64,000 bases of DNA, from the NCBI GenBank assembly GCA_945861435.1, contig CAMAUX010000017.1, positions 1 through 64,000 on the forward strand, in the 5' to 3' direction. Below, one piece after another: positions 4,084 to 56,045 of this stretch. The stretch's first letter is position 1. Every line of letters starts with the position of its first letter. Source of the DNA: Chthoniobacter flavus. GTDB lineage: Bacteria; Verrucomicrobiota; Verrucomicrobiia; Chthoniobacterales; Chthoniobacteraceae. Below the pieces are notes generated by a model that worked only from the letters and a program-made list of their open reading frames with translations, made no database searches and had not been told where the DNA came from. A program made the translations under genes and the position numbers.

Positions 4084-5741
4084 TTCTGCGCTTCGCTGGA
4101 GGCCGCCTTCGGACGCAGCTTCTTCTGCCCGGATCCCTGGAAAAGATCCTGCACGTCGAAGAAGAAGATGTAGACCATGAATCCGATGATCATCACGGCA
4201 CACCCCGTCTGCACCGCCTCCAAGATCCGCAGGCTCACAGGACGCCGCCGGATCCCCTCGATGATCGCCAGCACAATGTGCCCGCCGTCCAGCACCGGAA
4301 TCGGCAGCATGTTGAGCATCGCGAGGTTGATGTTCAGCACCACGCTGAACCAGAACGCCAGCCGCCATCCATCCGCGAAGTCCATCTGGAAGAAGCTGTA
4401 GTACACCCGCATCATCATCACCGGACCGCCCATGTGCTGAAGCTTCACGTCCGACTTCTTCGACGCCACGGCACCCACCGTGTCCACGATCGACATCCCG
4501 GCCTTGTAAAGCTGCTCCACCGGCCCCGGATGCACCAGCGCCGTCCGCCCACCCACGGTGAAGGCGATCCCAAGGTCATTGTCAAACTGCACCCCGATCA
4601 TCGGCCGCCCCTCGCCCTCCACCGGCGTCGGCGTCACCTTCACCTGCTGCTTCGCACCCGCGCGTTCCAACTCCAGGTTCAGCTCCATAGCGCCTGCAGC
4701 TCGGATCGCCTCCAGAACCTTCTGCGCCGAGTTCAAAGCCACACCGTTCACCGAAAGCACACGGTCTCCACGCTGGACCCCGGCCGCTTCCGCAGGCAGC
4801 CCCTTCACCACATCCCCCACCAGCGCGCCAAGGACCGACACAGGCCCCACCTCCAGCTTCTGCCCATGCCGATCCACCCCCAGCCGCAGCGGGGCACCGG
4901 CATTCGCCGAAAGCAGCTCGCCCAACTGGCTCGGATGCAGGATCCGCACGCCATTGACCTCCACCACCGCATCCCCGACCAGCAAGCCGGCGGCCGCCGC
5001 AGAGGAACCAGCACCCACCTCCCCAACCACCGCCGTTTCAGCCGGCAGAATCGGCAGCCTCCGCACACCCTTCCGACTCCAGCTCTTGGTCGTGGGCACA
5101 GTCGGCTTGGTCTGCACCTGCAGCCGCTGTGGCTGTCCGCCCACCATCCGCTCAAGCTCCAGGGCAACCTTCTCCCCTTCGCTGCGGATGATCCGCCATT
5201 CGACACTCTCGTTCCCCATCCCATGCCAGCGACTCACGGGAATCCCATCGATCGAAACAACCTTGTCCCCAGGCTGAAGACCATCCTTCTGGGCCCCCGA
5301 GTCGGGAAGCACATAGCCAATCACGGTGGTCGTCTCCGCCTCGCTCACCGGCCGCCCCACCCACCACACCGCCAGCGCAAACACGCACGCCAGCAGGAAA
5401 CTGAAGAGCGGTCCCGCAAACGCGACGATCACCTTGTCCAACGCGGAAATCGGCGGCAACTGGTTGCGGTCGCTCTTCACCTCACCCTCCATCACCTCCA
5501 TCGGCGCCAGTTGCGGCAGCGCCACAAACCCGCCGGCAGGAATCGATCCGAGGCTGTACACCACACCCCCGATCTCCTTCTCCCAAATCGGCTTCCCAAA
5601 CCAAACGCCGAACTTCTCGATCACCAACCCCCGCCACCGAGCGGCGAGGAAGTGCCCCAGTTCATGGACGATGATCATCAGGTTGAAGAGGACCACGACC
5701 TCCAAACAGATGAAGAGGAATTTTAAGACGTTGGCGACCAT
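4080..5741 (-). CDS. rseP: Site-2 intramembrane zinc metalloprotease RseP (M50)
   Basis: The 553-residue membrane protease has its zinc motif HELGH at residues 26-30 in the first membrane helix. The second active-site motif, NMLPIPVLDGGH, is near residue 480 in a late helix. Between them lie PDZ-type regions, with repeated GDxVxxxNG turns such as GDKVVSIDGIPV and GDRVLSVNGVAL. Family members cut transmembrane anti-sigma factors and leftover signal peptides. Two anti-sigma-like membrane proteins are encoded elsewhere in this window and could be substrates; that is inference. Its stop overlaps the ispG start (ATGA), which suggests translational coupling. A 182-bp gap with hairpins separates it from dxr upstream. 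Confidence 0.95.
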   Translation of the reverse strand: MVANVLKFLFICLEVVVLFNLMIIVHELGHFLAARWRGLVIEKFGVWFGKPIWEKEIGGVVYSLGSIPAGGFVALPQLAPMEVMEGEVKSDRNQLPPISALDKVIVAFAGPLFSFLLACVFALAVWWVGRPVSEAETTTVIGYVLPDSGAQKDGLQPGDKVVSIDGIPVSRWHGMGNESVEWRIIRSEGEKVALELERMVGGQPQRLQVQTKPTVPTTKSWSRKGVRRLPILPAETAVVGEVGAGSSAAAAGLLVGDAVVEVNGVRILHPSQLGELLSANAGAPLRLGVDRHGQKLEVGPVSVLGALVGDVVKGLPAEAAGVQRGDRVLSVNGVALNSAQKVLEAIRAAGAMELNLELERAGAKQQVKVTPTPVEGEGRPMIGVQFDNDLGIAFTVGGRTALVHPGPVEQLYKAGMSIVDTVGAVASKKSDVKLQHMGGPVMMMRVYYSFFQMDFADGWRLAFWFSVVLNINLAMLNMLPIPVLDGGHIVLAIIEGIRRRPVSLRILEAVQTGCAVMIIGFMVYIFFFDVQDLFQGSGQKKLRPKAASSEAQK

Positions 5742-26399: not shown

Positions 26400-26933
26400 G
26401 TGCACGATGAACATGAACTAGATACCCGCGAGCGCCTGACGCGACTTTGGCTCGCCGCGGAGCCGACAGTCAGCGCCTACGTCTTTGCGTCGGTCCGGAC
26501 GGTGCATGATGCCGAGGACGTGGTGCAGCAGGTGGCACTCACCATCGCGCGTCGCTTCGAGGAATACGATGGAACACGGCCCTTTGTGGCCTGGGCACTG
26601 TGGCTCGCCAAATCGCGCATCGCAGATCATTACCGGAAGCAGGGACGCGCCCGGTTGGTCTTTTCGGAGACCATGCTCGATCAACTCGCCGAGGCGCTGT
26701 CGCAACGCCAGCCACAACGCGGCGCACGCCAGGAGGCACTGGAACGTTGCCTCGAAAAGCTCCCCGAAAAATCGCGTCAATTACTCGAACGTCGCTACGA
26801 GGATGGCTCATCGATGGAGGTCGTCGCCGAAGCGCTGAACTCCACGGCCGCTTCGGTGCGCGTGATGTTATTTCGCATCCGTAATCTGCTCTCGGAGTGC
26901 ATCGCAACTGAACTCGCCAAGGAGAACCGATGA
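26400..26933 (+). CDS. ECF-type RNA polymerase sigma factor (module 1)
   Basis: The 177-residue product starts at GTG 26400. Region 2 spans about 20-90 (YVFASVRTVHDAEDVVQQVA, LWLAKSRIADHYRKQGRAR). Region 4 spans about 113-170 (LEKLPEKSRQLLERRYEDGS, MEVVAEALNSTAASVRVMLF, RIRNLLSEC). This is the standard two-domain layout of extracytoplasmic-function sigma factors. Its stop overlaps the start of the membrane protein gene (ATGA), the usual arrangement for a sigma factor and its anti-sigma. It heads a run continuing into DUF1552 and DUF1592 genes, which are its likely targets by position. Confidence 0.92.
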   Translation: MHDEHELDTRERLTRLWLAAEPTVSAYVFASVRTVHDAEDVVQQVALTIARRFEEYDGTRPFVAWALWLAKSRIADHYRKQGRARLVFSETMLDQLAEALSQRQPQRGARQEALERCLEKLPEKSRQLLERRYEDGSSMEVVAEALNSTAASVRVMLFRIRNLLSECIATELAKENR

Positions 26934-27892
26934 ACGAATCCGAACGCCAACTGGTGGACCTGTATCTCGACGGCGAACTGCCCGACGCCGAAAGCGTACC
27001 ATTACTCACACGTCTCGAGACGGATCCGCAGGCGATTTCTTACCTCGCGGAACGCGCCACCCTTCTCAGTGACCTGCGCCGCTCCCTGAAACGCCGTCAC
27101 TCACAGCAATGGGCGGTCGCTTCAACAGCGAAATCCTCCGAGTCGAGAGATGTCGCGCGCCCCCGCAATTCGCGTTGGTTTGCCTGGCCTCCGCTGGCGG
27201 CGGCAGCGGGCGTGGTGATCGGACTTTTCTGCGCTTCGGTCGCTTGGGCGGCAGCGTTGCCGTGGCTCTCGGAGGTGCGACAGTCCCTGAAGGTAGTCTT
27301 GAGCGAGAGCTTCGAGAAAGGCGTGGGCAAAACCATGCCGGGGTTGCCGCGCGTGGTGGGCGTGTGGAGTGGCGATGAGGCGGAGGCAGTAACTTCAACC
27401 CCCGCGATCAAGTCACAGAGTGGCGGCAAAATGCTGCGCTTTATCAGCGCCACTTATCCCGGTGAAGACTCACCGCGCAGCCAGTGGAGCGACGTGTATC
27501 GACTCGTGGATGTGCGCGGACTCGCGGGTGCAGGGCAGAGCGTGGCGCGGCTCTCGGCCAGCTTTCTTCAGGACACTCTGTCACCGGAGCAACGATTCGC
27601 CGGGCGTGCGGAAGCGCTCGCGATCGACAAGGAATTGAGCGCCCTCCCCTCGCCGCTGACCCTCGCATGGCTCGAGCAGAACAACAGTGCAATGGGCGCG
27701 CGCGGAGCCGTGCTGACAGCGGCCCGCACATGGCAACATGTGTCCGTCGAAGTGCCAATCACAAGGGAGACACGCTACATCATGCTCCACCTCGCCATGG
27801 TTCAAGAGCAGCCCAACATCCATTCCGGGGCAGTGCAGTTTGCTGGACACTTTATTGACGACGTGAAGATGGAAGTCGTTAGCCGCCCTTGA
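26930..27892 (+). CDS. Anti-sigma-like membrane protein with exported domain (module 1)
   Basis: The 320-residue product starts in the ATGA overlap with the sigma gene. Residues 1-60 form a cytoplasmic helical region (ERQLVDLYLDGELPDAESVP), like the N-terminus of FecR-type anti-sigma proteins, without a zinc-binding His/Cys cluster. A membrane helix lies near 82-105 (LAAAAGVVIGLFCASVAWAA). About 215 exported residues follow, with SGGKMLRFI and SDVYRLVDVRG. The exported part looks like a beta-sandwich sensor, possibly carbohydrate-binding. The protein encoded at 54216 shares the helix, the GGKMLRF block and the SDV-LVD block. RseP could cleave it; that is inference. Confidence 0.82.
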   Translation: MNESERQLVDLYLDGELPDAESVPLLTRLETDPQAISYLAERATLLSDLRRSLKRRHSQQWAVASTAKSSESRDVARPRNSRWFAWPPLAAAAGVVIGLFCASVAWAAALPWLSEVRQSLKVVLSESFEKGVGKTMPGLPRVVGVWSGDEAEAVTSTPAIKSQSGGKMLRFISATYPGEDSPRSQWSDVYRLVDVRGLAGAGQSVARLSASFLQDTLSPEQRFAGRAEALAIDKELSALPSPLTLAWLEQNNSAMGARGAVLTAARTWQHVSVEVPITRETRYIMLHLAMVQEQPNIHSGAVQFAGHFIDDVKMEVVSRP

Positions 27893-27971: not shown

Positions 27972-29267
27972 ATGCACTCCCATCCCTCCTATTCACAGCC
28001 TCCGCTCAGTCGCCGCCAATTCCTCCGTGCGGGCTCGGCGGTGCTGGCTCTGCCATTTCTCGAAGCACTCGCGCCACGACTGGCTCGTGGTGCATCCGCG
28101 CCACCGCCAAAGCGCATGGTGTGCATCATGACGAACACCGGCCTGCTGGCGGACAACTTCTGGCCGAAGGAAACGGGGCGGAGCTACGCGCCGTCGCGCT
28201 ATCTCGCCCATCTGGAGCAGGTCCGCGGGCGTTATTCGGTGATGAATGGCCTCTCGCACCCGGATAATTCCGGCGGACATGTGGTGGAGAAAAGCTTCCT
28301 CACCGGCGCGCGGTTTCCGTCGTCCGCCGTTTTCAAAAACAGCATCTCGGTCGATCAGCTTGCGGCGGAATCGCTCGGTCATCACACGCGCTTTCCCTTC
28401 CTCGCACTCGGCGTGAACGGCCAGCACGACGGGCTGCTCTCAGTCTCGCGCGATGGCGTATTCATCCCGCCCGAGCTGAGCCCGGCCAAGGTGTATCAGC
28501 GCCTCTTCACCCCGGACACGGCAGCCGAAAGCGAGCAGCGAATGCGCGAGATCGGCCAGCGCGTGAGCACCCTCGACTTTGTGAATGACAAAGCGAAGCG
28601 CCTCTCGCAAAGCCTCGGCGAGGAGGACCGAGCGCGGCTCGACCAGTATCTCACCTCGGTGCGCGAGTTGGAGCAGCGCCTCGAGCAGGCGCGGGTGTGG
28701 CAGCAGCGAGAAAAGCCACGCGTCACCGTGCCTCAGCCGCAGGACATCTTGGACAACACGCAGGACGTGGATCGCGCACAGCTCATGTACGACATGACCC
28801 TGCTCGCCCTCCAGAGCGACAGCACGCGCATCGTCACGCTCTATCTGAATCCTCTCGAGATCCTCGTGAAACTGCCCGGTGTGAACGACCGCACGCACAC
28901 GCTCACGCATCACGGCAACGAGCCGGAGAAACTGGAACAACTCGCCAAAGTCGAAGAAGCAGGACTGAAGAATCTCGGCCGCTTCCTCGCGGGGCTCGCT
29001 GCGGTGAATGAAGGCGGAAGCAGCCTGCTCGAAGACACGGCGGTGCTCTTTGGCTCGAACATGTCGAACGGTAGCAACCACTCAAACGTAAACCTGCCGG
29101 TCGTCCTCGCAGGCGGACGCTTCAAGCACGGCCAGCACATCCAGTTCGACCTGAAAAACAACACACCGCTCTGCAATCTCTTCGTCTCCATGCTCCAGCA
29201 CATGGGCCTCGAGCGCGATGCCTTCTCCTCCAGCACGGGAACTCTTACCGGACTGGAAATGGCATGA
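27972..29267 (+). CDS. Tat-exported DUF1552 protein (module 1)
   Basis: The 431-residue product has a canonical twin-arginine leader (LSRRQFLRAGSAVLALPFLE). The DUF1552 body follows: KRMVCIMTNTGLLADNFWP, YSVMNGLSHPDNSGGHVVEK, SISVDQLAAESLG, YLTSVRELEQRLEQARVW, and LLEDTAVLFGSNMSNGSNHS leading to LPVVLAGG. It lies 79 bp after the anti-sigma-like gene, and its stop overlaps the DUF1592 gene start (ATGA). In this set DUF1552 comes first, the reverse of sets 1 and 3. Confidence 0.9.
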   Translation: MHSHPSYSQPPLSRRQFLRAGSAVLALPFLEALAPRLARGASAPPPKRMVCIMTNTGLLADNFWPKETGRSYAPSRYLAHLEQVRGRYSVMNGLSHPDNSGGHVVEKSFLTGARFPSSAVFKNSISVDQLAAESLGHHTRFPFLALGVNGQHDGLLSVSRDGVFIPPELSPAKVYQRLFTPDTAAESEQRMREIGQRVSTLDFVNDKAKRLSQSLGEEDRARLDQYLTSVRELEQRLEQARVWQQREKPRVTVPQPQDILDNTQDVDRAQLMYDMTLLALQSDSTRIVTLYLNPLEILVKLPGVNDRTHTLTHHGNEPEKLEQLAKVEEAGLKNLGRFLAGLAAVNEGGSSLLEDTAVLFGSNMSNGSNHSNVNLPVVLAGGRFKHGQHIQFDLKNNTPLCNLFVSMLQHMGLERDAFSSSTGTLTGLEMA

Positions 29268-31972
29268 GACGCGGTGTTGGCATCCTTCTGCTCCGCGCAC
29301 TTTTCATCTCACTCCCGGCCACGGTCAGTCCGGCCGCTGAGGAGCTGCGCGTTTATCTCGAAGCGCATTGTTTCGACTGCCATGACTCGACGACCAAGAA
29401 GGGCGGTCTCGATCTCGAAGCATTGCCGATGCAACTCGATGCGCGCGATCCATTCGCGAAATGGTCGCTCGTGCACGACCGCATCGCCGCAGGTGAAATG
29501 CCGCCGAAGTCGCGACGCGAGCGCCCTTCCGAAAAAGAAAACGCGGACGCGCTGAAGCTCCTCGACAACCGACTCCACGACGCCGATGCCGCGCACATTG
29601 CAAAGACCGGACGCGCGCTGTTCCGCCGCCTCTCCGCGCAAGAATACGAGAACGCGTTGCGTGACCTCCTGCATCTGCCCGGATTGCGGATCAAGCATCT
29701 GCTACCCGAGGACGAGCGTCGCCACGGCTACAACAAAATCGGCCAGGCGCTCGATCTCTCGAACGTGCATCTGAACCAGTTCATGGATGCGGCAGACCTC
29801 GCCCTCACCAGCGCCATCGCAACCCGCAGCACACCGCCGCCAGTGCGCCGCGTGCGATTCGGCGGAGCCGCGATCCCGGATGCGATGACCTGGATGGCGC
29901 ATGGCAGTGCCGTGCCGTTGAAGGATAAGCAATACGATCCCGTGGTGCCGCTGCCGTCTCCCGACGACGATCTCAATGCGAACCAGGAGTTGAAGAAATC
30001 GCGTTACGCCACGCTCGGCAGAGTGCTCCGCGATTACCCGCACGCCGGCGGATACTTCACCGGCGCGACACATCGCCCGATGATTTTTTCACTGGAATAC
30101 GCGCCCATCTACGCGGGCGAATATCGCATCCGCACCTCCGCGTGGGGCTTCTGGTGGGATCGCGGCAAGGTGGAGCCGCCGCATCGCGATGAATCCTTCG
30201 CGCTCACCGCGTGGCTGCCCTCCGACGGGCCGCGCTTCGTGCATTCGCCGTCGCGCTGGCTCGGGCTCTTTGATGTGTCGTCACTCGAAAGCCGCGTGCA
30301 TGAATTCACCGGCTGGTTCGATGTGAATGATGAACTGGTCTTCGACATCGGCACGCTGAACGGCCACGAAAAAACCACCGGTCGTTTCCCCGGCGACGCG
30401 AAGGGCGCATGCACCGTCTATTCTGGTCCGGGCATCGCGCTCGATTGGGTGGAAGCGGAAGGCCCCATCTTCGATCAATGGCCGCCGCGCAGTCACACAG
30501 CCATCTTCGGCGATCTGCCGATTCGCTCGCTGGAGAGGGATACCGACATCATCCCGCCGAAACGCACGCCCGTGCGGCAGCGCTCGCATTCGAGCATGGC
30601 TCGACCAACCAACGCTTCGATTCCCAAGGAAGAAAGCGAACCGCCGCTGGAGAGCGTCTTCACCGCACATCCGCAGGAGGACGCCACGCGCCTGCTCGCG
30701 CAGTTTTTGCCGCGCGCGTTTCGTCGTCCCACCACGGCGGATGAAGTGCAGGGTTATGTGCAGATCGTCACGCGCGAGTTGGAGCGCCACGCGTGCTTCG
30801 AGGACGCCATGAAAGAAGCCTGCAAGGCCGCACTGTGCTGCCCGGATTTCCTTTTTGTCGGTGGCGATACGATCGCCGATGCAATGACATCGCGCCCTCG
30901 ACTCACCGACCGCGCCCTCGCCGAGCGCCTCGCGCTTTGGTTTTGGAACAGCGTGCCCGACGAACAACTCCTTGCGCTCGCCAACGAAGGTCGCCTGCAT
31001 CTTCCCGAAACCCTCAAGCACCAGACCGATCGCCTCCTCGCCGATCCGCGATCGGATCGGTTCATCGCCGACTTTACCGACCAGTGGCTCGACCTGCGCA
31101 AGATCGACGCCACCCAGCCCGACCTGCGGATCTATCCCGAGGCCCGCGAGCACTTGAAGCACAGCATGATCGATGAGACGCGCGCTTATCTGCGCGAGTT
31201 GATCACGCACGATCTCAGCGTCACGCATCTCGTAAAATCGGACTTCGCAATGCTCAATCAAAGCCTCGCCATCCACTATGGCGTGCCCGGTGTCACCGGC
31301 TGCGGTCTCCGCCGCGTTCCCTTGCCTCACGACACTCCGCGCGGCGCGTTCATCACTCAGGCCGCTGTCTTGAAAGTCACTGCCAACGGCACCACCACGT
31401 CTCCCGTTACTCGCGGCGCGTGGATCAACGAGCGCATCCTCGGAAACATCATCCCACCACCTCCCGCCGGAGTGCCCGCGATCGATCCCGACACGCGCGG
31501 CGCGACGACCATTCGCGAGAGTTTGGAAAAGCACCGCGCAGACACGCGCTGCGCGGGTTGCCACGCCAAGATCGATCCGCCCGGCTTTGCATTGGAGAGC
31601 TTCGATGTCATCGGCGGCTTTCGGAATCGCTACCGCTCGCTCTTTACCGGCTCCCCGCTGATGGAGTTCCATTTCCCCACCGGCTGGGACCCACGCGTGC
31701 GGCTCAATCAATCAGTAGACCCTTCAGGCCAACTCCCGAGTGGCGAGCCCTTCCAAAACCTCACCGGCTTCCAATCGCTGGTCCTTCGCAATCCCGATGC
31801 TCTCGCTGCGAACATGGTCCGCCAGCTCCTCATGTATGCCACCGGCTCCGAGCCCCACTACTCCGACCGCCGCGACGTTGGCCGCATCCTCGCGCAAACA
31901 AAGCCGAAGAACCACGGCCTCCGCTCCCTCATCGACGCGATCGTGCAGAGCGAGCTGTTTCGCACGAAGTAA
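29264..31972 (+). CDS. Exported DUF1592-family diheme cytochrome-like protein (module 1, copy 1)
   Basis: The 902-residue product starts in the ATGA overlap. The signal peptide runs to about residue 25 (ALFISLPATVSPAAE). Heme motif CFDCH lies at 36-40 and a second motif, CAGCH, at 763-767 in CAGCHAKIDPPGFALESFD. DUF1587, DUF1592, DUF1588 and DUF1585 regions are recognisable (LSAQEYENALRDLLHLPGLR, LPRAFRRPTTADEVQGYVQI, LTDRALAERLALWFWNSVPD, TANGTTTSPVTRGAWINERI). A central stretch of about 250 residues after residue 190, containing RIRTSAWGFWWDRGKVEPP and VHEFTGWFDVNDELVFD, is an added domain seen in neither set 1 nor set 3. It has a close tandem copy 27 bp downstream. Confidence 0.9.
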   Translation: MRRGVGILLLRALFISLPATVSPAAEELRVYLEAHCFDCHDSTTKKGGLDLEALPMQLDARDPFAKWSLVHDRIAAGEMPPKSRRERPSEKENADALKLLDNRLHDADAAHIAKTGRALFRRLSAQEYENALRDLLHLPGLRIKHLLPEDERRHGYNKIGQALDLSNVHLNQFMDAADLALTSAIATRSTPPPVRRVRFGGAAIPDAMTWMAHGSAVPLKDKQYDPVVPLPSPDDDLNANQELKKSRYATLGRVLRDYPHAGGYFTGATHRPMIFSLEYAPIYAGEYRIRTSAWGFWWDRGKVEPPHRDESFALTAWLPSDGPRFVHSPSRWLGLFDVSSLESRVHEFTGWFDVNDELVFDIGTLNGHEKTTGRFPGDAKGACTVYSGPGIALDWVEAEGPIFDQWPPRSHTAIFGDLPIRSLERDTDIIPPKRTPVRQRSHSSMARPTNASIPKEESEPPLESVFTAHPQEDATRLLAQFLPRAFRRPTTADEVQGYVQIVTRELERHACFEDAMKEACKAALCCPDFLFVGGDTIADAMTSRPRLTDRALAERLALWFWNSVPDEQLLALANEGRLHLPETLKHQTDRLLADPRSDRFIADFTDQWLDLRKIDATQPDLRIYPEAREHLKHSMIDETRAYLRELITHDLSVTHLVKSDFAMLNQSLAIHYGVPGVTGCGLRRVPLPHDTPRGAFITQAAVLKVTANGTTTSPVTRGAWINERILGNIIPPPPAGVPAIDPDTRGATTIRESLEKHRADTRCAGCHAKIDPPGFALESFDVIGGFRNRYRSLFTGSPLMEFHFPTGWDPRVRLNQSVDPSGQLPSGEPFQNLTGFQSLVLRNPDALAANMVRQLLMYATGSEPHYSDRRDVGRILAQTKPKNHGLRSLIDAIVQSELFRTK

Positions 31973-31999
31973 GCTCTTATCCGTCCATCCTCCCCAACC

Positions 32000-34693
32000 A
32001 TGCGCATCGCGCTTCTCATTGTTCTCATGACCTCGACGCTCTGCGCAGCGAATGCGGACCTGCGCAGCTACCTCGAAGCACATTGTTTCGACTGCCATGA
32101 CTCCACTTCCAAGAAGGGCGGACTCGATCTCGAAGCATTGCCGACGCAACTCGATGCTCGCGATCCATTCGCGAAGTGGTCGCTCGTGCACGACCGCATC
32201 GCCGCAGGTGAAATGCCGCCGAAATCGCGACGCGAGCGTCCTTCCGAAAAGGAAAACACGGAGGCGCTCAAGATCCTCGACAACCGACTGCACGACGCCG
32301 ATGCCGCGCACATTGCAAAGACCGGACGCGCGTTGTTCCGTCGCCTCTCCGCGCAGGAATACGAGAATGCGTTGCGCGACCTGCTGCATCTGCCCGGATT
32401 GCGGATCAAGCATCTGCTACCCGAGGACGAGCGCCGCCACGGCTACAACAAAATCGGCCAGGCGCTCGATCTCTCGAACGTGCATCTGAGCCAGTTCATG
32501 GACGCGGCAGACCTCGCCCTCACCAGCGCCGTCGCCACCCGCAGCACACCACCGCCAGTTCTGCGGAAGCATTATGGCGGAACCAGCGGCTCAGAGAACT
32601 GGAACTGGATCGCGCGGGGAGACGCGGTGCTTTTGAAGAACAAGCAGTTCGATCCTCTGCTGCCGCTACCCGCGCCCGATCAGGATCTCTGGGGCGCGAA
32701 GGGCTCGGCCGATGTAAAACAGCGCAACGAATCACTCGGGACCAAGCTCCGCGACTACGAGGGAGCCATCGGCTTCTTCACCGGTCCCATCGAGCGCACG
32801 TTCAACATGACCATGCAGTTCTCGCCGGTTTATCCCGGGACATATCGCATCCGAACCTCCGCGTGGGGCTTCTGGTGGGATCAGGGCAAGGTGGAGCCGC
32901 CGCAGCGCAACGAGTCCTTCATGCTCTCCGTTTGGCTTCCCTCGGACGGCCCTCGCTTCATTCATTCACCCTCGCGCCGGCTCGGCATGTTTGATGTTCC
33001 CGGCCTGCAAAGCCGCGTCCACGAATTCACCGGCTGGTTTGATGTGAACGAGGAACTCCTCTTCGAAATGGGCACGCCGAACGGTTACGAGAAAAACACC
33101 GGACGCTGGGCATCGCAGTCGCCGGGATCGTGCGCCGTCTATTCCGGCCCCGGCATCGCGCTCGACTGGTTTGAGGTGGAAGGTCCGATCTTCGAACAAT
33201 GGCCGCCGCGCAGCCACACCGCGATCTTTGCCGATCTGCCCATCCGCCCGCTCGAGAACGACAGCGGCATCATCAAGCCGAAGCGCGAGCCTGTGCGGCA
33301 GCGCTCACGCAACAATGGAACCCGCCCCAGCAACAGCGAACTCACCAAGGGTGAAAAACAGCCGCCGATGGAAAGTGTCTTCAGCGAGCATCCGCAGGAG
33401 GACGCAACGCAGCTGCTCGAGCAGCTGCTTCCGCGCGCCTTTCGTCGTCCTGTACCTCCCGAAGAGGTGCGTGGCTACGTGGAAATCGTCACGCGGGAGC
33501 TGAAGGAACACGCGTGCTTCGAGGACGCGATGAAGGAGGCGTACAAGGCCGCGCTTTGCTCCCCGGACTTCCTTTTCATCGGCCACACAATCTTGGCGGA
33601 GAACGACGCGCCGCGCATCCGGCTCAGTGACCGCGCTCTCGCCGAACGGCTCGCTCTTTGGTTTTGGAACAGCATCCCCGATGCGGAACTCCTCGCGATT
33701 GCGAACGAGGCTCACCTGCACCTGCCCGAAAACCTCAAGCGGCAAACCGACCGCCTCCTCGCCGATCCACGCTCGGATCGGTTCGTCGCCGACTTCACCG
33801 ACCAATGGCTCGACCTCCGGAAAATCGACGCCACCCAGCCCGAGACCAAGCTGTATCCGGAAGCGCGCGAGCACCTGAAGCACAGCATGATCGCGGAAAC
33901 GCGCGCCTTCCTCCGCGAGCTGATCACGAAAGACCTCAGCATCACGCACGTCGTGAGATCCGACTTCGCGATGCTCAATCAAAGTCTCGCCGATCACTAC
34001 GGCATCGCGGGCGTCTCCGGCTGTGACTTTCGGCGCGTTCCTTTGCCGCCGGGCAGCCCACGCGGTGCGTTCCTCACGCAGGCTGCCGTGTTGAAGGTCA
34101 CCGCCAACGGCACCACCACCTCGCCCGTCACTCGCGGCGTATGGATCAACGAACGCATTCTCGGCAATCACATCCCTCCCCCGCCGGCCGGCGTGCCCGC
34201 GATTGATCCCGACACCCGTGGCGCAAAGACCATCCGCGAGCAGTTGGAAAAGCATCGCTCCGACGCGCGCTGCGCCGGATGTCACGCGAAGATCGATCCA
34301 CCCGGCTTTGCTCTGGAGAGCTTCGATGTCATCGGCGGCTTTCGCGAACGTTACCGCTCGCTCACCACCGGCGACACGCAGGCCACGTTTCATTTCGCCT
34401 CCGGCTTTGCACCGAGGATCCGTCTCCATCTGCCCGTGGATCCCTCCGGTCAGCTCCCCACCGGCGAGCCCTTCAAAACCCTCACCGACTTCCAAGAGCT
34501 CGTCCTTCGCAACCCCGATGCTCTCGCCACAAACATGATCCACCAGCTCCTCATGTATGCCACGGGCTCCGAGCCCCACTACTCCGACCGCCGCGAAGTC
34601 ACACGCATCCTCTCCCAAACGAAACCCAGCCACCACGGCTTCCGCTCCCTGATCGACGCCATTGTGCAAAGCGAACTGTTCCTCACGAAGTAG
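32000..34693 (+). CDS. Exported DUF1592-family diheme cytochrome-like protein (module 1, copy 2)
   Basis: The 897-residue product is a tandem duplicate of the preceding gene. The signal peptide is short (IALLIVLMTSTLCAANA); heme motif CFDCH is at 29-33 and a second, CAGCH, lies near residue 760. From about residue 24 to 181 it is nearly identical to copy 1. The next roughly 100 residues are clearly diverged (LRKHYGGTSGSENWNWIARG here against RRVRFGGAAIPDAMTWMAHG there). The two then become similar again through RIRTSAWGFWWDQGKVEPP to the end. This mosaic suggests gene conversion or selected divergence of one surface. Confidence 0.9.
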   Translation: MRIALLIVLMTSTLCAANADLRSYLEAHCFDCHDSTSKKGGLDLEALPTQLDARDPFAKWSLVHDRIAAGEMPPKSRRERPSEKENTEALKILDNRLHDADAAHIAKTGRALFRRLSAQEYENALRDLLHLPGLRIKHLLPEDERRHGYNKIGQALDLSNVHLSQFMDAADLALTSAVATRSTPPPVLRKHYGGTSGSENWNWIARGDAVLLKNKQFDPLLPLPAPDQDLWGAKGSADVKQRNESLGTKLRDYEGAIGFFTGPIERTFNMTMQFSPVYPGTYRIRTSAWGFWWDQGKVEPPQRNESFMLSVWLPSDGPRFIHSPSRRLGMFDVPGLQSRVHEFTGWFDVNEELLFEMGTPNGYEKNTGRWASQSPGSCAVYSGPGIALDWFEVEGPIFEQWPPRSHTAIFADLPIRPLENDSGIIKPKREPVRQRSRNNGTRPSNSELTKGEKQPPMESVFSEHPQEDATQLLEQLLPRAFRRPVPPEEVRGYVEIVTRELKEHACFEDAMKEAYKAALCSPDFLFIGHTILAENDAPRIRLSDRALAERLALWFWNSIPDAELLAIANEAHLHLPENLKRQTDRLLADPRSDRFVADFTDQWLDLRKIDATQPETKLYPEAREHLKHSMIAETRAFLRELITKDLSITHVVRSDFAMLNQSLADHYGIAGVSGCDFRRVPLPPGSPRGAFLTQAAVLKVTANGTTTSPVTRGVWINERILGNHIPPPPAGVPAIDPDTRGAKTIREQLEKHRSDARCAGCHAKIDPPGFALESFDVIGGFRERYRSLTTGDTQATFHFASGFAPRIRLHLPVDPSGQLPTGEPFKTLTDFQELVLRNPDALATNMIHQLLMYATGSEPHYSDRREVTRILSQTKPSHHGFRSLIDAIVQSELFLTK

Positions 34694-50511: not shown

Positions 50512-51789
50512 TCACGCAAACAACTCGACCACCGGCTTGCCCTTGTCCGCCACGGTGAAGGGCCGGCCGGAGGGGGAGTGTTCGATGTGCTGCAGGTCGA
50601 TGCCCATGGCTTGCGCGATGGTCGCGTTGCAGTCCTGCATGGTGACAGGCTTCTCCGCGACACGTTCGCCGATCTCGTCGGACTTACCGTGGACGTAGCC
50701 CCCCTTCATACCCGCCCCAGCGAGCCACCAGGTGAAGACACCGGGATGATGTCCGCGGCCCGCGGTGACGCTGCTGATTTGCGGTGTGCGCCCAAACTCG
50801 GTGGCCATGACGACGAGCGTGCTGGCGAGCAGGCCCCGCTGGTGCAGGTCTTCGAGCAGGGCCGCCATCGTCTGGTCCGTGGTGGGCACCATGTTCTCCA
50901 TCGATTTGATCTGATCGTTGTGCGTGTCCCAGTTGTGCGCGTCCTCGACTTCGATGAATCGCACGCCGCTTTCCACGAGCCGCCGCGCGAGGAGGCAGCC
51001 TTTGCCAAACGTGTGCGTGCCATAAGCCGCCTGCGTCTTTTTGTCCTCCCGCGAAATGTCGAACACCTTCAGGTCCTCGCTCTTCATCAGCGCGGCGGCG
51101 TCCCGCTGCACTTTCAAATAAGCGGCGGCATCGCGATGCGGAGTCTGCTGCACGAACCGCCCGCCCACCGACTCCGCAAGAGCGATGCGCCGCGCGAAGT
51201 CCGACTCCGCGACCTTCGCAGGTAACGCGGAATTCTGCAGGCCCGCTCCAGGATCCATGATGGGCAGTGGCGCGAGGTGCGTGGGCATGTAGCCGCTGCG
51301 CGGATGCTGCGGACTGCCGTTGATAAGAATGTTTCCCGGCAGCACGGCATTTCCGGAACCGAGCAGTTTCACCGCCCACGCTCCGAGCGACGGATGCGTG
51401 ATGGTCGGTGTCATGAAGTAATTCGTGTGCGCGAGATAAGTGCCGCGATCATGGATGCCCTGCGTGGAACTCATCGAGCGCACGAGCGAGACGTGGTGCA
51501 TCTGCTTCGCCATGCGCGGAAACCACTCTGAAACCTGCACGCCATCCGCGCTGGTCGCGATCGCCTGCACGCCCCCCATCTCGGGCTTTCCGGGCTTCGG
51601 ATCGAAGGTGTCGATGTGCGAGATTCCGCCGCGCATGTAGAGGAAGATCACGCTCTTCGCCTTGCCGCCGACTTTGCCCTCGGCCGCGTGCAGTCTGCCA
51701 GACCCAGGCAGCAAACTGACGCCGAAAACAGCCTTCGAAAAGCGCTCCAAGAACGCTCGCCGGCCGATGTCTTTGAGGATCGATTTCAT
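50512..51789 (-). CDS. Exported DUF1501 protein (module 2)
   Basis: The 425-residue product has a twin-arginine leader (IGRRAFLERFSKAVFGVSLL). DUF1501 segments follow: KSVIFLYMRGGISHIDTFDP, QVSEWFPRMAKQMHHVSLVR, GVRFIEVEDAHNWDTHNDQI, STLVVMATEFGRTPQISS and AGRGHHPGVFTWWLAGAGMK, ending with a variable tail that includes MQDCNATIAQAMGIDLQHIE. Metal-type His and Asp positions match the copy at 43599 in order. It is transcribed last in the run sigma, anti-sigma-like protein, DUF1549/DUF1553, DUF1501, starting 19 bp after the cytochrome stop. Confidence 0.92.
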   Translation of the reverse strand: MKSILKDIGRRAFLERFSKAVFGVSLLPGSGRLHAAEGKVGGKAKSVIFLYMRGGISHIDTFDPKPGKPEMGGVQAIATSADGVQVSEWFPRMAKQMHHVSLVRSMSSTQGIHDRGTYLAHTNYFMTPTITHPSLGAWAVKLLGSGNAVLPGNILINGSPQHPRSGYMPTHLAPLPIMDPGAGLQNSALPAKVAESDFARRIALAESVGGRFVQQTPHRDAAAYLKVQRDAAALMKSEDLKVFDISREDKKTQAAYGTHTFGKGCLLARRLVESGVRFIEVEDAHNWDTHNDQIKSMENMVPTTDQTMAALLEDLHQRGLLASTLVVMATEFGRTPQISSVTAGRGHHPGVFTWWLAGAGMKGGYVHGKSDEIGERVAEKPVTMQDCNATIAQAMGIDLQHIEHSPSGRPFTVADKGKPVVELFA

Positions 51790-51808
51790 GGGGTGATGGA
51801 AGGTGGGT

Positions 51809-54172
51809 TCACTGATTGAAAAGAAACTCCGGCGAGTTCAGCAGGGCCCAGAGGAGGTCTGGCTCGGGAGTCGCACTCCCTTTCGTCAACATCGCCGCCT
51901 CCGCGACTTCCTCCGCCGTCGCCGAGCGGACAAGGATCGCCCGGTAAATGAGCTGCGTGCGCTGTTCGCCCGCCGCCTTGGTCTCGGAGAGCTCATGACG
52001 CAGAAACGAATCCTCCCCCAGCACGTGGGCTGTCAGCTCGCCGTTCATCAGCGCGAGCGAGTGCGTGGTGTTCGGGTCCCGGTTGAACGCGTCGATCTCA
52101 CGCCGATCCGACTGGCCGAACTGACGCAGAAAATGCCCCTGCGGCAATGGCAGCGGCGTCTCCGATGCGCGAATGAAAGTGCGCGGCAGTGATTTCCAGC
52201 GCGGATCGGTTTCCTTGGTCTCGGCATCCCCATCGGCTTGCAGATCCATCCCCTTCATGTCGGAGCCGGGGATTTCCTTGTTCTGCTTCGCATGCAACGC
52301 CAGCAGCCGCTTCACCTCTTTTTCGTCGCCTCCAGCCTTGGCCGCGGCCAGTTCCTTTTGCTGCTCCGCACGGCGCAGACTGAGTTCCCGCCCCCGGGTG
52401 TGTTCGGCAAGGTCGATGCGAGCCTGCGCGATGATTTCGTCCGCAGTCATCACTGTGAGCTTCTTCAGGCGCTTTGGATCCAGCTTGCCTCCATAACGAA
52501 ATCCGGACTTTCGTTCATCAACGTCCTTTGCGAGCAGGACGAGATGGGAATCCCAGATCTGCTCCGCCGACAGGCGCCGCAGTTGCGGCCCGCGCAGCGC
52601 AAATGCCGCTGCAGGCTCGGGTGTCGCGCGCACGGACTCGCTCTGATACAGGCGCGTGTGCAGCAGCACCGCCATGAAAGAGCGCTCATCAAAACGCAGC
52701 CGGATCATCATCTGCGTGAGGAAGTCCATGAGCTCCGCGTGCTCCGGATTGGGCAGCGCCGAGAGACTGTCCACGGGCTCGATCAATCCCATGCCCATGA
52801 CGCGCTTCCACAAACGGTTCGCGATGGTCGTAGCGAACCGGGGATTGCGGGGTGAGGTCATCCATTCCGCGAACGCCTTGCGGCGATTGTCGTCGTGCAT
52901 GCTGGCCTCGTCGCCAAAGAGTGTGCGCGGCTCCACTGATTCACCGCGGAGCGCCGGATCGTAGGCGTAGGTCTCGGGAAACTTCAGTTGCTTGTCCGTG
53001 TCTACTGTCACCCGCTTCAAGGGAGCAATCGTCCCACTCACGCTATCGGCCAGTGCCTTGTCTTTTGGCATCGCGGCCATCTTCTCCTGGATCTCGGAAT
53101 ACTGCCTCACGTTGTAAGGCGAATACCCGCCGGGGTTGCCCAGATTGCTCACGCCAAAGGTGAACGCCACCATCTGGTAGAAATCCTTCTGCGTGATAGG
53201 CTCCAGTGGATGATCGTGGCACTGCGCGCACTCGATCCGCGTGCCCAGAAAAACCCGCGTCATGTTCGACATGTGATCCAGCGGCATCCCGAGATCGCGC
53301 ACATAAAAACCGACCGCGCCGTTTTCCCACAGGCGGCCGCTTGCGGTGACCAACTGCCGCACAAACTCATCATAGGGCATGTGCGAGCGAATCGCGTCTT
53401 TCACCCAGTCGTCGTAGAGTTTGCCCGGCTGGCCGGGGGCAAGTCCGCGCGAGTTGAGGCGGAGCAGGTCGGCCTTCCAGTTGAACATGTGGCTCACGTA
53501 ACCCTCGCTGCCCAGCAGTTCATCGATCAGCTTCCCGCGCTTATCCGCGGCTTTGCTATCAAGGAAGCGCGCGCTCTCTTCCAAGCTCGGGATGCGGCCC
53601 ACGACATCGAGATACACGCGGCGCAGAAATGTCTCATCGCTCGCCGGCGCGTTCAGCTTCGTGCCTTTGGCCACGTGAGATTGATCCACCCGCTTCTGAA
53701 CTTCCGCGCTCAACTGGCGCACATCCGCGCCGGCAAGCGACGCATCGGTCGCCGGCAAAGTCCCCCCGCGATGGTCGAATTGAACCCACGATCCCAGCTT
53801 CGCCCCATCCGCGATCCATTGCCGCAGCATCGCGCGCTCCGCGTCATTCAAAGGCTGCGCACCGCCTTTCAGCGGCGGCATCGTGTCCTCGTCGGTATGC
53901 GGCAGCGACACCCGCTTCAGCAACTCGCTCTCGTCCGGCTTCCCCGGAACGATCACTTCGCCGACGCGGATCCCTTCCGCTGTATCAAGCCGCAGCCTGC
54001 CCTTCGGCTTCGCCTGCTTCTCGCTGTGGCAGCCAAAGCAGTGGTGGTAGAGCACCGGTAGAATGTCTTTGTCGAAACTCGGGGAATCCGCCGCCACGAG
54101 AAGCTGCGCAGCATTGGTCAGCAGCGCGACGACGACGCCGAGACGTGCGGCGGATGGAGGCCTTGCGATCAT
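51809..54172 (-). CDS. Exported DUF1549/DUF1553 cytochrome-like protein (module 2)
   Basis: The 787-residue product has a signal peptide (LGVVVALLTNAAQLLVAAD). A PSCyt1 domain holds CFGCH (45-49). DUF1549 carries a second motif, CAQCH (315-319), in GTRIECAQCHDHPLEPITQK. DUF1553 runs to the end (EWMTSPRNPRFATTIANRLW, KRVMGMGLIEPVDSLSALPN, RLSAEQIWDSHLVLLAKDVD). A charged helical insert near residues 580-640, rich in Lys, Glu and Arg (LRRAEQQKELAAAKAGGDEK), interrupts DUF1553 and is absent from the copy at 41040. It starts 43 bp after the anti-sigma-like gene. Confidence 0.9.
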   Translation of the reverse strand: MIARPPSAARLGVVVALLTNAAQLLVAADSPSFDKDILPVLYHHCFGCHSEKQAKPKGRLRLDTAEGIRVGEVIVPGKPDESELLKRVSLPHTDEDTMPPLKGGAQPLNDAERAMLRQWIADGAKLGSWVQFDHRGGTLPATDASLAGADVRQLSAEVQKRVDQSHVAKGTKLNAPASDETFLRRVYLDVVGRIPSLEESARFLDSKAADKRGKLIDELLGSEGYVSHMFNWKADLLRLNSRGLAPGQPGKLYDDWVKDAIRSHMPYDEFVRQLVTASGRLWENGAVGFYVRDLGMPLDHMSNMTRVFLGTRIECAQCHDHPLEPITQKDFYQMVAFTFGVSNLGNPGGYSPYNVRQYSEIQEKMAAMPKDKALADSVSGTIAPLKRVTVDTDKQLKFPETYAYDPALRGESVEPRTLFGDEASMHDDNRRKAFAEWMTSPRNPRFATTIANRLWKRVMGMGLIEPVDSLSALPNPEHAELMDFLTQMMIRLRFDERSFMAVLLHTRLYQSESVRATPEPAAAFALRGPQLRRLSAEQIWDSHLVLLAKDVDERKSGFRYGGKLDPKRLKKLTVMTADEIIAQARIDLAEHTRGRELSLRRAEQQKELAAAKAGGDEKEVKRLLALHAKQNKEIPGSDMKGMDLQADGDAETKETDPRWKSLPRTFIRASETPLPLPQGHFLRQFGQSDRREIDAFNRDPNTTHSLALMNGELTAHVLGEDSFLRHELSETKAAGEQRTQLIYRAILVRSATAEEVAEAAMLTKGSATPEPDLLWALLNSPEFLFNQ

Positions 54173-54215
54173 GCAGTAATCTGGGGTTTCATATTCTGCC
54201 CAAAGGTTCCTTTGT

Positions 54216-55175
54216 TCACGGTGCAGAAATCTCGGGCCGCCGTGCGATCACGAGCTGCACCTTGTCCGCAAAGTGTCCCACGAAACTATCCCGGCGCTTG
54301 TCCGGCAACTTCGTATCATTCGACATCCCGAGGCGGATCATTAGGTAATCCGTATCCGAAGGCAGCCGCAGTTCATTGCGCACTTTCTGCCAGGTGGCCG
54401 GATCCCGATCCATCAACACCTTGCTGCTGCGTGAGAAAGCGAGCGATTCCGTCGAGAGCACATTGTCCACCTTCACCGTCCCATCGGTCACAACACTCCC
54501 ATCCAGCGCGAAGATCGTCAGCGTGGCACTAAAGCTCTCATCCGCGGGAAACGACACTGCATTGAAAAGAGCCGTCAACTGCACCACCGCGCCGCCGTCC
54601 GCGAACTCACTGCGAATCGGCCGCAGATCCACCAAGTGGAAAACATCGCTGCTGTGGCTCAAGGGAATGCTTTTCCCCTCAGAGTCGCCCCGGAGAAACC
54701 GCAGCATTTTCCCCCCGTCCGCGGGCTGGATTCCCTGCTGCTCGCCCACGATCTCACTGTAGTCTCCGCTCCACCTACCCGCCTCGGTTGGCACACCAAC
54801 CACCAAGGGTGCAGGCCCTGACTCAAAGCCTTCCTGCAAGAGCGTGATCGCCTTCGCCAGTGAAGGCGCGACATACGCCCACGCCACCGATACGCAGAAC
54901 AAACCGAGCACCAACGCCGCCGCGGCCGCGCTGAGAGGACGCCACGAAAGCCAGCCCAGCCACGGCGGCCACATCCGACCCGTCTTGCGCACCGCCTCGG
55001 AATGGATCTGTGCGTACTCGCGTGCCGCGACACCTTGCGTGAGGATTTCCGCGAGCAGGTCGCACGCCTCCGCGTCATGCTCCAGTTGCGCCGAGAGCTC
55101 TCGCACTTCCTGCGGGGTGCAATCGCCCGCCACATAACGGGTGAGCATTTCGCTCAGATGAGTTTCGTCGGTCAT
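54216..55175 (-). CDS. Anti-sigma-like membrane protein with exported domain (module 2)
   Basis: The ATG at 55175 overlaps the sigma stop (ATGA), giving 319 residues; an ATG two codons upstream is possible. A cytoplasmic helical region (HLSEMLTRYVAGDCTPQEVR) precedes one membrane helix (SAAAAALVLGLFCVSVAWAY, near 75-100). An exported domain follows with DGGKMLRFLRGDSEG and SDVFHLVDLRPIR. Helix and blocks match the protein encoded at 26930 (GLFC-SVAWA, GGKMLRF, SDV--LVD-R). No zinc-finger motif is present. It probably holds the ECF sigma inactive until the exported domain binds a signal. Confidence 0.82.
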   Translation of the reverse strand: MTDETHLSEMLTRYVAGDCTPQEVRELSAQLEHDAEACDLLAEILTQGVAAREYAQIHSEAVRKTGRMWPPWLGWLSWRPLSAAAAALVLGLFCVSVAWAYVAPSLAKAITLLQEGFESGPAPLVVGVPTEAGRWSGDYSEIVGEQQGIQPADGGKMLRFLRGDSEGKSIPLSHSSDVFHLVDLRPIRSEFADGGAVVQLTALFNAVSFPADESFSATLTIFALDGSVVTDGTVKVDNVLSTESLAFSRSSKVLMDRDPATWQKVRNELRLPSDTDYLMIRLGMSNDTKLPDKRRDSFVGHFADKVQLVIARRPEISAP

Positions 55176-55696
55176 GGCCATGCAATCTCCTGCGCGGCGA
55201 GCCGCCGGTTGATGCACTGACGCAGCGCCTGATGCAGTCGTGACAGTGCCTTGTAAATCGCAGCTTCATTGCGGCGCAGCAGCCGCGAAAGCTCCGCCCC
55301 CTTCCGCCCCTCATCATAGCGCATCCGCAGCAGGAGCCGGGATTCAACCGTCAGCCCTTCCAAACACACCCGCATCGCCTCCGCCCGCTGCCCGTGCGAG
55401 TCGGCGATGTCCTCCAGGCGTGCATCCAGAGCGTCCAGCGCCAGCTCGCTCAAAATCTCATCGAGCCGTCCTGCGCGCCGCACTTGATCAATGCCCAGAT
55501 TACGCGCCGTCACACGCGCCCAAGCCAGCACTCCGCCTTCGTCCGAAAAACTCTCACGCAGCCGCAACGCCCGCACGAGAACCTCCTGAAAAACATCCTC
55601 GGCCGCGTGCGCATCACGCACCACCGCGAATGCCCCTGCCACTAATCGCGGCCTGGCATCGAGGAGGGTTTTAACGAGCAGTTCTTCGGTCATCAT
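55172..55696 (-). CDS. ECF-type RNA polymerase sigma factor (module 2)
   Basis: The 174-residue product has region 2 at about 18-80 (GAFAVVRDAHAAEDVFQEVL, WARVTARNLGIDQVRRAGR) and region 4 at about 110-165 (LEGLTVESRLLLRMRYDEGR, KGAELSRLLRRNEAAIYKAL). A start at the first of two ATGs (55696) is assumed. It belongs to a different lineage from the sigma at 26400, judging by its region 4 (RRNEAAIYKALSRLHQALRQ against NSTAASVRVMLFRIRNLLSE). It is coupled to the membrane protein gene and heads the DUF1549/DUF1553-DUF1501 run. Confidence 0.92.
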   Translation of the reverse strand: MMTEELLVKTLLDARPRLVAGAFAVVRDAHAAEDVFQEVLVRALRLRESFSDEGGVLAWARVTARNLGIDQVRRAGRLDEILSELALDALDARLEDIADSHGQRAEAMRVCLEGLTVESRLLLRMRYDEGRKGAELSRLLRRNEAAIYKALSRLHQALRQCINRRLAAQEIAWP

Positions 55697-55792
55697 GAGA
55701 GGGACGAATAACCCGCGAAAGTCTGACTAACAAAATTGAGAGAGGAAGACACTCGCCTTCCTCCCGCCTTATTCCTGGCAGCTTCCCTCCTA

Positions 55793-56045
55793 TTACCGGC
55801 TTCTCCCGCGTGCGATGTCCGCCTTCAGCACAGCGAGGAGCTCCTTCGCTTTGCCGGGCTCTTCGGTGAAGGGATTCGTGGCCTCACCGGGATCGGCGCG
55901 GAGATTGTAGAGTGGGAACTTCGCGTTGGGCCCCCTGCCACTGGTCGCGAGGATCTTGATCTGGTGTGAAGATGCCGTCCTGCACTTCATAGACTCCCGA
56001 TGGAAGGGTGAGATCCCGATCACCTTCGCGGCTGGCGAGACAGGG
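55793..56045 (-). pseudogene. 3' remnant of an arylsulfatase gene
   Basis: The minus strand encodes a typical sulfatase C-terminus, GRGPNAKFPLYNLRADPGEA followed by TNPFTEEPGKAKELLAVLK and a final GRSR. Just upstream, in another frame, LASREGDRDLTLPSGVYEVQ then DGIFTPDQ continues the homology, where the usual sulfatase text would be like REGDWKLTLPSG. A frameshift near 55967 therefore splits the remnant, and the catalytic N-terminal domain with its Cys/Ser-x-Pro-x-Arg site is missing. It is a decayed fragment next to the module 2 sigma gene. Confidence 0.7.

Follow-up and report, generated by a model that had tools for sequence, protein, structure and literature searches.

A sigma factor and sensor gene pair ahead of secreted cytochrome and DUF1501 genes in Verrucomicrobiota appears to be a mosaic of exchangeable parts

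Few proteins of unknown function are as numerous in Planctomycetes and Verrucomicrobia as those of the PSCyt/PSD, DUF1501 and DUF1552 families. In the 64,000-nucleotide stretch of Chthoniobacter flavus DNA analysed here (the window), a cytochrome gene of this kind and a DUF1501 gene stand directly behind genes for an ECF sigma factor and a membrane protein. The locus raises the question of whether this layout is due to chance and, if not, which of the four parts belong together.

The block occupies positions 50512-55696 on the minus strand. Its first gene (55172-55696) encodes an ECF sigma factor of 174 aa, which is short and contains only sigma regions 2 and 4, as expected of the sigma-70 group IV. 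Pfam returned PF04542 (Sigma70_r2, 7.7e-13) and PF08281 (Sigma70_r4_2, 1.4e-4, under its gathering score), and TIGR02937 scored 57.9 bits against a cut-off of 42.9. TIGR02989 (Sig-70_gvs1) was the nearest NCBIfam, of which the protein is not a member since its 98.6 bits lie below the curated cut-off of 124.55. The ATG of the anti-sigma-like membrane protein gene (54216-55175, minus strand) overlaps the TGA of the ECF gene in the ATGA at 55175-55172. After 43 bp follows the gene for a secreted di-haem-type cytochrome (51809-54172, minus strand), composed of PSCyt1 (PF07635, E 7.4e-11), DUF1549/PSCyt2 (PF07583, 1.2e-41) and DUF1553/PSD1 (PF07587, 3.5e-30), with two CxxCH motifs at residues 45 and 315. 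After a further 19 bp the DUF1501 gene (50512-51789, minus strand; PF07394, 4.9e-108) begins, the product of which has the twin-arginine motif RRAFL at residue 10. PF07635, PF07583 and PF07587 adjoining PF07394 make this a PSCyt/PSD1 planctomycete-type cytochrome and DUF1501 pair. The first-pass annotation had given the coordinates, strand, gene order, ATGA overlap and both gaps correctly. The surroundings of the block were not found in any close relative. Upstream of the ECF gene, a frame of 76 aa (55793-56023) ends in a stretch resembling a sulfatase C-terminus (FPLYNLRADPGEATN) and is possibly a gene remnant; a Pfam search with this frame gave no match.

An AlphaFold2 model of the membrane protein, built from 27 aligned relatives, had a mean pLDDT of 84. 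Codons 1-74 (54954-55175, minus strand) are predicted to form a cytoplasmic anti-sigma head of three helices (residues 2-65), and codons 75-319 (54216-54953, minus strand) a transmembrane helix (80-105) followed by a periplasmic beta-sandwich of carbohydrate-binding type (109-312). PDB matches of the sandwich had Z of 11.5-13.6 and an rmsd of about 3-4 over 140-170 residues, with Fbs1 (Z 13.6), CBM22 (13.1; rmsd 3.1, 147 aligned), CBM61 (12.7), CBM4 (11.7) and CBM16 (11.6) among them, and residues 106-314 could be superposed on solved CBMs, as is characteristic of a jelly-roll CBM fold. Jelly-roll proteins without known sugar binding were matched too, so the fold supports glycan sensing but does not prove it. 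The helical head, the one transmembrane helix, the outer domain and the overlap with the ECF gene are features of Class I transmembrane anti-sigma factors, and on the model the protein appears to be an anti-sigma-like sensor. No Pfam family matched it at E up to 5, including anti-sigma domains and the FecR domain PF04773, and the RsgI N-terminal domain was not found.

Copies of the membrane protein nearly always follow an ECF. Among 40 genomes of the same family, 68 copies of the window-type membrane protein were found, 66 of them directly preceded by an ECF and the other two cut by contig ends; the exact 4-bp overlap was present in 50 of the 68. A PSD, DUF1501 or DUF1552 gene came directly after 36 copies and within 4.5 kb for 44. 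Where cytochromes were lacking, the neighbours checked included genes for GH2, GH95, GH28, GH63-like and sulfatase proteins, as well as sulfatase-modifying-type, GFO/IDH/MocA and repeat proteins. The partners of the sister ECFs in the host genome gave FecR (PF04773) matches in seven cases, most of them also with a LamG domain. Genomes G002 and G003 held 14 and 15 matches to the sensor-type anti-sigma and G001 of the same genus held none, which points to strong expansion or loss.

The layout is not due to chance. TIGR02989-like ECFs, defined as scoring above 90 bits, number 14 in the host genome (5.35 Mb, 105 contigs). For eight of these the same strand carried a PSD1 or PSD4 gene at most 5 kb further downstream, always accompanied by DUF1501 or DUF1552 within the run; C56, one of the 14, is at a contig end and its downstream side is missing from this count. 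Random placement predicts 4.1% (binomial tail for 8/14, 2e-8). A similar rate for unrelated ECF genes had been named in the first-pass annotation as the finding that would speak against its rule, and in the host genome it was not seen: none of the 15 other ECF-like matches lay upstream of such a pair (0/15 vs 8/14, Fisher p = 7e-4). The linkage of ECF, anti-sigma, cytochrome and DUF15xx genes is thus a real and repeated rule. The wider form of the proposal, that each such pair has a switch, is wrong because most of the roughly 53 PSD1 and 37 PSD4 loci in the host genome have no ECF, only eight of the 14 class ECFs being upstream of one.

Nor did the idea of a dedicated ECF hold. The same four-gene block, with gaps of 42-43 bp and 19 bp, was present at loci L112, L113 and L114, and in L115 it was cut by a contig end. 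Between the window and these four loci the sensor was 74-78% identical, the cytochrome 80-85% and DUF1501 91-92%, whereas the ECF was only 24-29% and the anti-sigma head 23-33% identical. Likewise, the heads of the five relatives were 21-36% identical and the rest 74-91%; L112-L115 among themselves had ECFs of 26-37% identity and common DNA of 87-92%. In DNA, the window resembled L112-L115 from nt ~215-227 of the anti-sigma gene, shortly ahead of the transmembrane segment, for about 4.46 kb at 82-84% identity to just past the DUF1501 stop (2.3 kb in L115, contig end); upstream of the transmembrane-coding start no DNA match between the window and these loci was detected. In an ECF tree, a clade of the five ECFs was rejected (770 log-likelihood units, p-AU 1e-86). 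Since the same sensor, cytochrome and DUF1501 DNA stands behind five unrelated ECFs in five genomes, the sensor is the dedicated part and the ECF the interchangeable one.

The front of the window block has its own relative elsewhere. In L158 (genome G008) the ECF was 82% identical to that of the window and the head matched up to the transmembrane start, the DNA similarity spanning 55736 to 54909. The sensor of L158 is a FecR protein (PF04773, E 3e-18) and its next gene is TIM-barrel isomerase-like; neither a cytochrome nor DUF1501 was found next to this ECF/anti-sigma pair. The DNA similarity boundaries place the exchange zone of the window at 54937-54975 (minus strand), where the transmembrane segment begins (WLSWRPLSAAAA), and the head travels with the ECF. 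By these comparisons the window block is a chimera, and its own combination of front and back was seen once.

A second block in the window, noted in the first-pass annotation as a parallel, was confirmed as a run of ECF, membrane protein, DUF1552 and two DUF1592-family genes on the plus strand. It comprises the ECF (26400-26933), which passes the TIGR02989 cut-off with 147.7 bits, the anti-sigma (26930-27892), DUF1552 (27972-29267) and a DUF1592-family cytochrome (29264-31972). The ECF was 73% identical to that of L131 and 67% to that of L063, both of which have different sensors, and the sensor and enzymes matched L088 and L091. The two blocks had been taken as independent cases; their membrane proteins (54216-55175 and 26930-27892) are homologous (32-34% identity) and both blocks are chimeras, so they do not count as such. 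The tandem DUF1592-family genes right after DUF1552 (29264-34693; 902 and 897 aa) look like a recent duplication.

How general the exchange is was seen from 98 non-redundant ECF/anti-sigma loci, nearly all from metagenome assemblies. Where sensors agreed to at least 70%, ECF identity was at least 70% in 22 pairs, 40-70% in 4 and below 40% in 57, the last being the swapped pairs; 15 swapped pairs were disjoint, and 21 loci had a front partner at one locus and a back partner at another. The pairs counted are not independent of one another. The head was kept (at least 45%) in all 61 pairs with ECFs at least 70% identical. In 57/57 swapped pairs the similarity started no more than 45 nt from the transmembrane start (median +3 nt); it stopped with the anti-sigma gene in 30 and extended more than 1 kb into the enzymes in 26. 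The similarity of fronts usually started about 40-80 bp upstream of the ECF. From the alignments, the operon consists of two exchangeable parts: a front of promoter-proximal DNA, ECF and head, and a back of transmembrane segment and sensor, to which the enzymes often belong. Recombination at the transmembrane start has joined fronts and backs anew many times, and the ECF serving a given sensor/enzyme pair is therefore not conserved.

Ordinary divergence, with a far higher rate of change in the ECF and head than in the sensor and enzymes and no exchange, could draw on the fact that anti-sigma heads are short and variable. We regard it as extremely improbable, because ECF identity is bimodal (at least 70% or below 40%) at equal sensor identity, the DNA similarity ends abruptly at one point, the lost fronts were found at 82-97% identity with other sensors (L158, L116, L123), and the trees reject a single history. 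In particular, the sensor data rejected a grouping of L115 with L116 (p-AU 2e-21) although their ECFs are 97% identical.

Two trios, L070/L071/L123 and L115/L113/L116, allowed junctions to be read at the nucleotide level. Over 3.87 kb the back half of L070 (G009:C237) was 97% identical to that of L071 (G015:C134), and its ECF and head were 95% and 94% identical to those of L123, so L070 is likely a nearly base-exact chimera from a recent exchange. Most loci being MAG contigs, and some front and back halves being up to 97% identical, the mosaics might instead be assembly artefacts in which wrong halves were joined at similar transmembrane-coding stretches. As a general cause this is very unlikely, because the reading frames are intact, the halves shared by the window and L112-L115 differ by 8-18%, which is beyond a k-mer misjoin, and some combinations recur in independent MAGs (L138/L141/L145 and L055/L122). 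Five different fronts from five assemblies, and the short exact runs at junctions between unrelated pairs (median 7 nt), also argue against it. The records of L113, L116, L118-L120, L126, L134, L140 and L147 are labelled Klebsiella pneumoniae, Akkermansia muciniphila, Planctomicrobium or Acidobacteria; these contigs carry Verrucomicrobial-looking genes and the MAG labels are probably wrong.

We do not claim a dedicated recombination site, because the junction codons barely exceed the codon-usage expectation (synonymous conservation ratio 1.16 vs 1.08 in the sensor) and those exact runs are short. On the contigs of L064, L145 and L118, two ECF/anti-sigma or cytochrome/DUF15xx blocks lie head to tail, an arrangement in which homologous transmembrane-coding stretches would be near each other for exchange.

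Enzymes travelled with the sensor in 33/57 swapped pairs vs 29/3187 unrelated pairs (tblastn), and in the other 24/57 the sensor had changed its neighbours. These changed neighbours, and the many PSD genes that have no ECF, are what one would expect if the ECF did not control the downstream enzymes and the genes merely accumulated in the same variable genome regions. Same-strand placement, gaps down to -4 bp, the difference between the two ECF groups of the host genome and the joint movement of enzymes and sensor speak against such accumulation, which we hold to be quite unlikely. We favour control of the enzymes by the module.

The best explanation, which we consider likely as a whole, is that the four genes make up a single operon carrying its own self-contained signalling module, in which an anti-sigma sensor controls secreted enzymes and the fronts and backs are mosaic. 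The anti-sigma head would hold the ECF at the inner membrane until a ligand, most likely a polysaccharide or a fragment of one, reaches the outer domain. Contact may then lead to cleavage of the anti-sigma, for example by an RseP-type M50 protease, and the freed ECF would transcribe from a promoter just upstream of itself, in the ~40-80 bp that travel with it. By read-through the cytochrome and DUF1501 genes would be expressed as well, and their secreted products would act on that substrate. M50/RseP-like proteases are present in the genome; one with PDZ domains, a candidate for the cleavage, is encoded in the window at 4080-5741. The occurrence of the same sensor and enzymes behind unrelated ECFs argues for read-through within the operon rather than for distant promoters. 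The candidate autoregulatory promoter is the ~40-bp stretch at 55697-55740 (minus strand) within the movable front, where ATTTTG.T.GTCAGA and TTCGTCC are among the blocks conserved within the front family; such conservation upstream of ECFs within front families hints at a promoter. An upstream alignment of the five block relatives revealed no shared promoter, as expected if their fronts differ.

The ECF pair could also sense envelope or oxidative stress, with the cytochrome and DUF1501 protein having a stress or respiratory function and not a glycan one. The two CxxCH motifs of the cytochrome would suit this, as would Rhodopirellula baltica RB10049, an ECF gene adjoining a PSD1/PSC2 gene, which was induced in all three stress conditions tested (PMC2754498). 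This reading is unlikely, though it deserves more weight than the alternatives above, given the carbohydrate-binding fold of the outer domain, the LamG domains in other partners of the same genome and the glycoside hydrolases and sulfatases adjoining homologous pairs.

Taking glycan sensing as the preferred reading, it is reasonably probable that the sigma/head and sensor/enzyme modules of Verrucomicrobiota act as a natural plug-in system, in which new sigma factors have repeatedly been joined to the same glycan sensor and enzymes. Such exchange would be tolerated because promoter, sigma factor and head move together as a self-contained circuit. A sensor with a carbohydrate-binding fold tied to PSCyt/PSD operons offers a direct and testable route to the substrates of these enzymes through the ligand of the sensor. 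The mosaic shows that sigma/anti-sigma heads are swapped as whole parts in nature. It bears on how numerous ECF circuits can be gained side by side in bacteria without cross-talk, and it suggests a joining point for synthetic anti-sigma chimeras.

The pairing of PSCyt genes with neighbour genes in Verrucomicrobia was noted previously, with function unknown (PMC5615132). The ECF-PSD1 link itself is not new either. The first-pass annotation knew of no described system of this form, but Studholme et al. (cited in PMC2754498) had already proposed that ECF RB10049 of R. baltica regulates the PSD1/PSC2 protein RB10051. There too, an ECF gene adjoins a DUF1549/DUF1553 cytochrome gene; the host is a planctomycete, and as cited in PMC2754498 the case includes neither an anti-sigma sensor nor an operon structure, nor are parts described as exchanged. 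The literature searched contained no paper on sigma/anti-sigma heads being exchanged in nature, which is weak evidence of novelty. As in ECF systems with a FecR-type anti-sigma (PF04773), the transmembrane anti-sigma gene follows and overlaps the ECF gene; unlike those, the window partner has a CBM-like domain in place of a FecR domain. By analogy, the pair would most likely work like RsgI/SigI of Clostridium thermocellum, in which outer carbohydrate-binding domains control sigma factors (PMC12203970, PMC4711584). Both combine a sigma-binding head in the cytoplasm and a single transmembrane helix with an outer sensor of carbohydrate-binding type (here predicted). In both, several pairs exist in parallel, with similar heads bearing different sensors and with degradative genes as likely targets. 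The resemblance is one of layout only, since the sigma and head families differ and the RsgI N-terminal domain is absent. Moreover, the host belongs to Verrucomicrobiota rather than Clostridia, the PSCyt/DUF1501 genes that are the likely targets lie in the operon itself and, unlike in SigI/RsgI, the comparisons show fronts and backs recombining across species.
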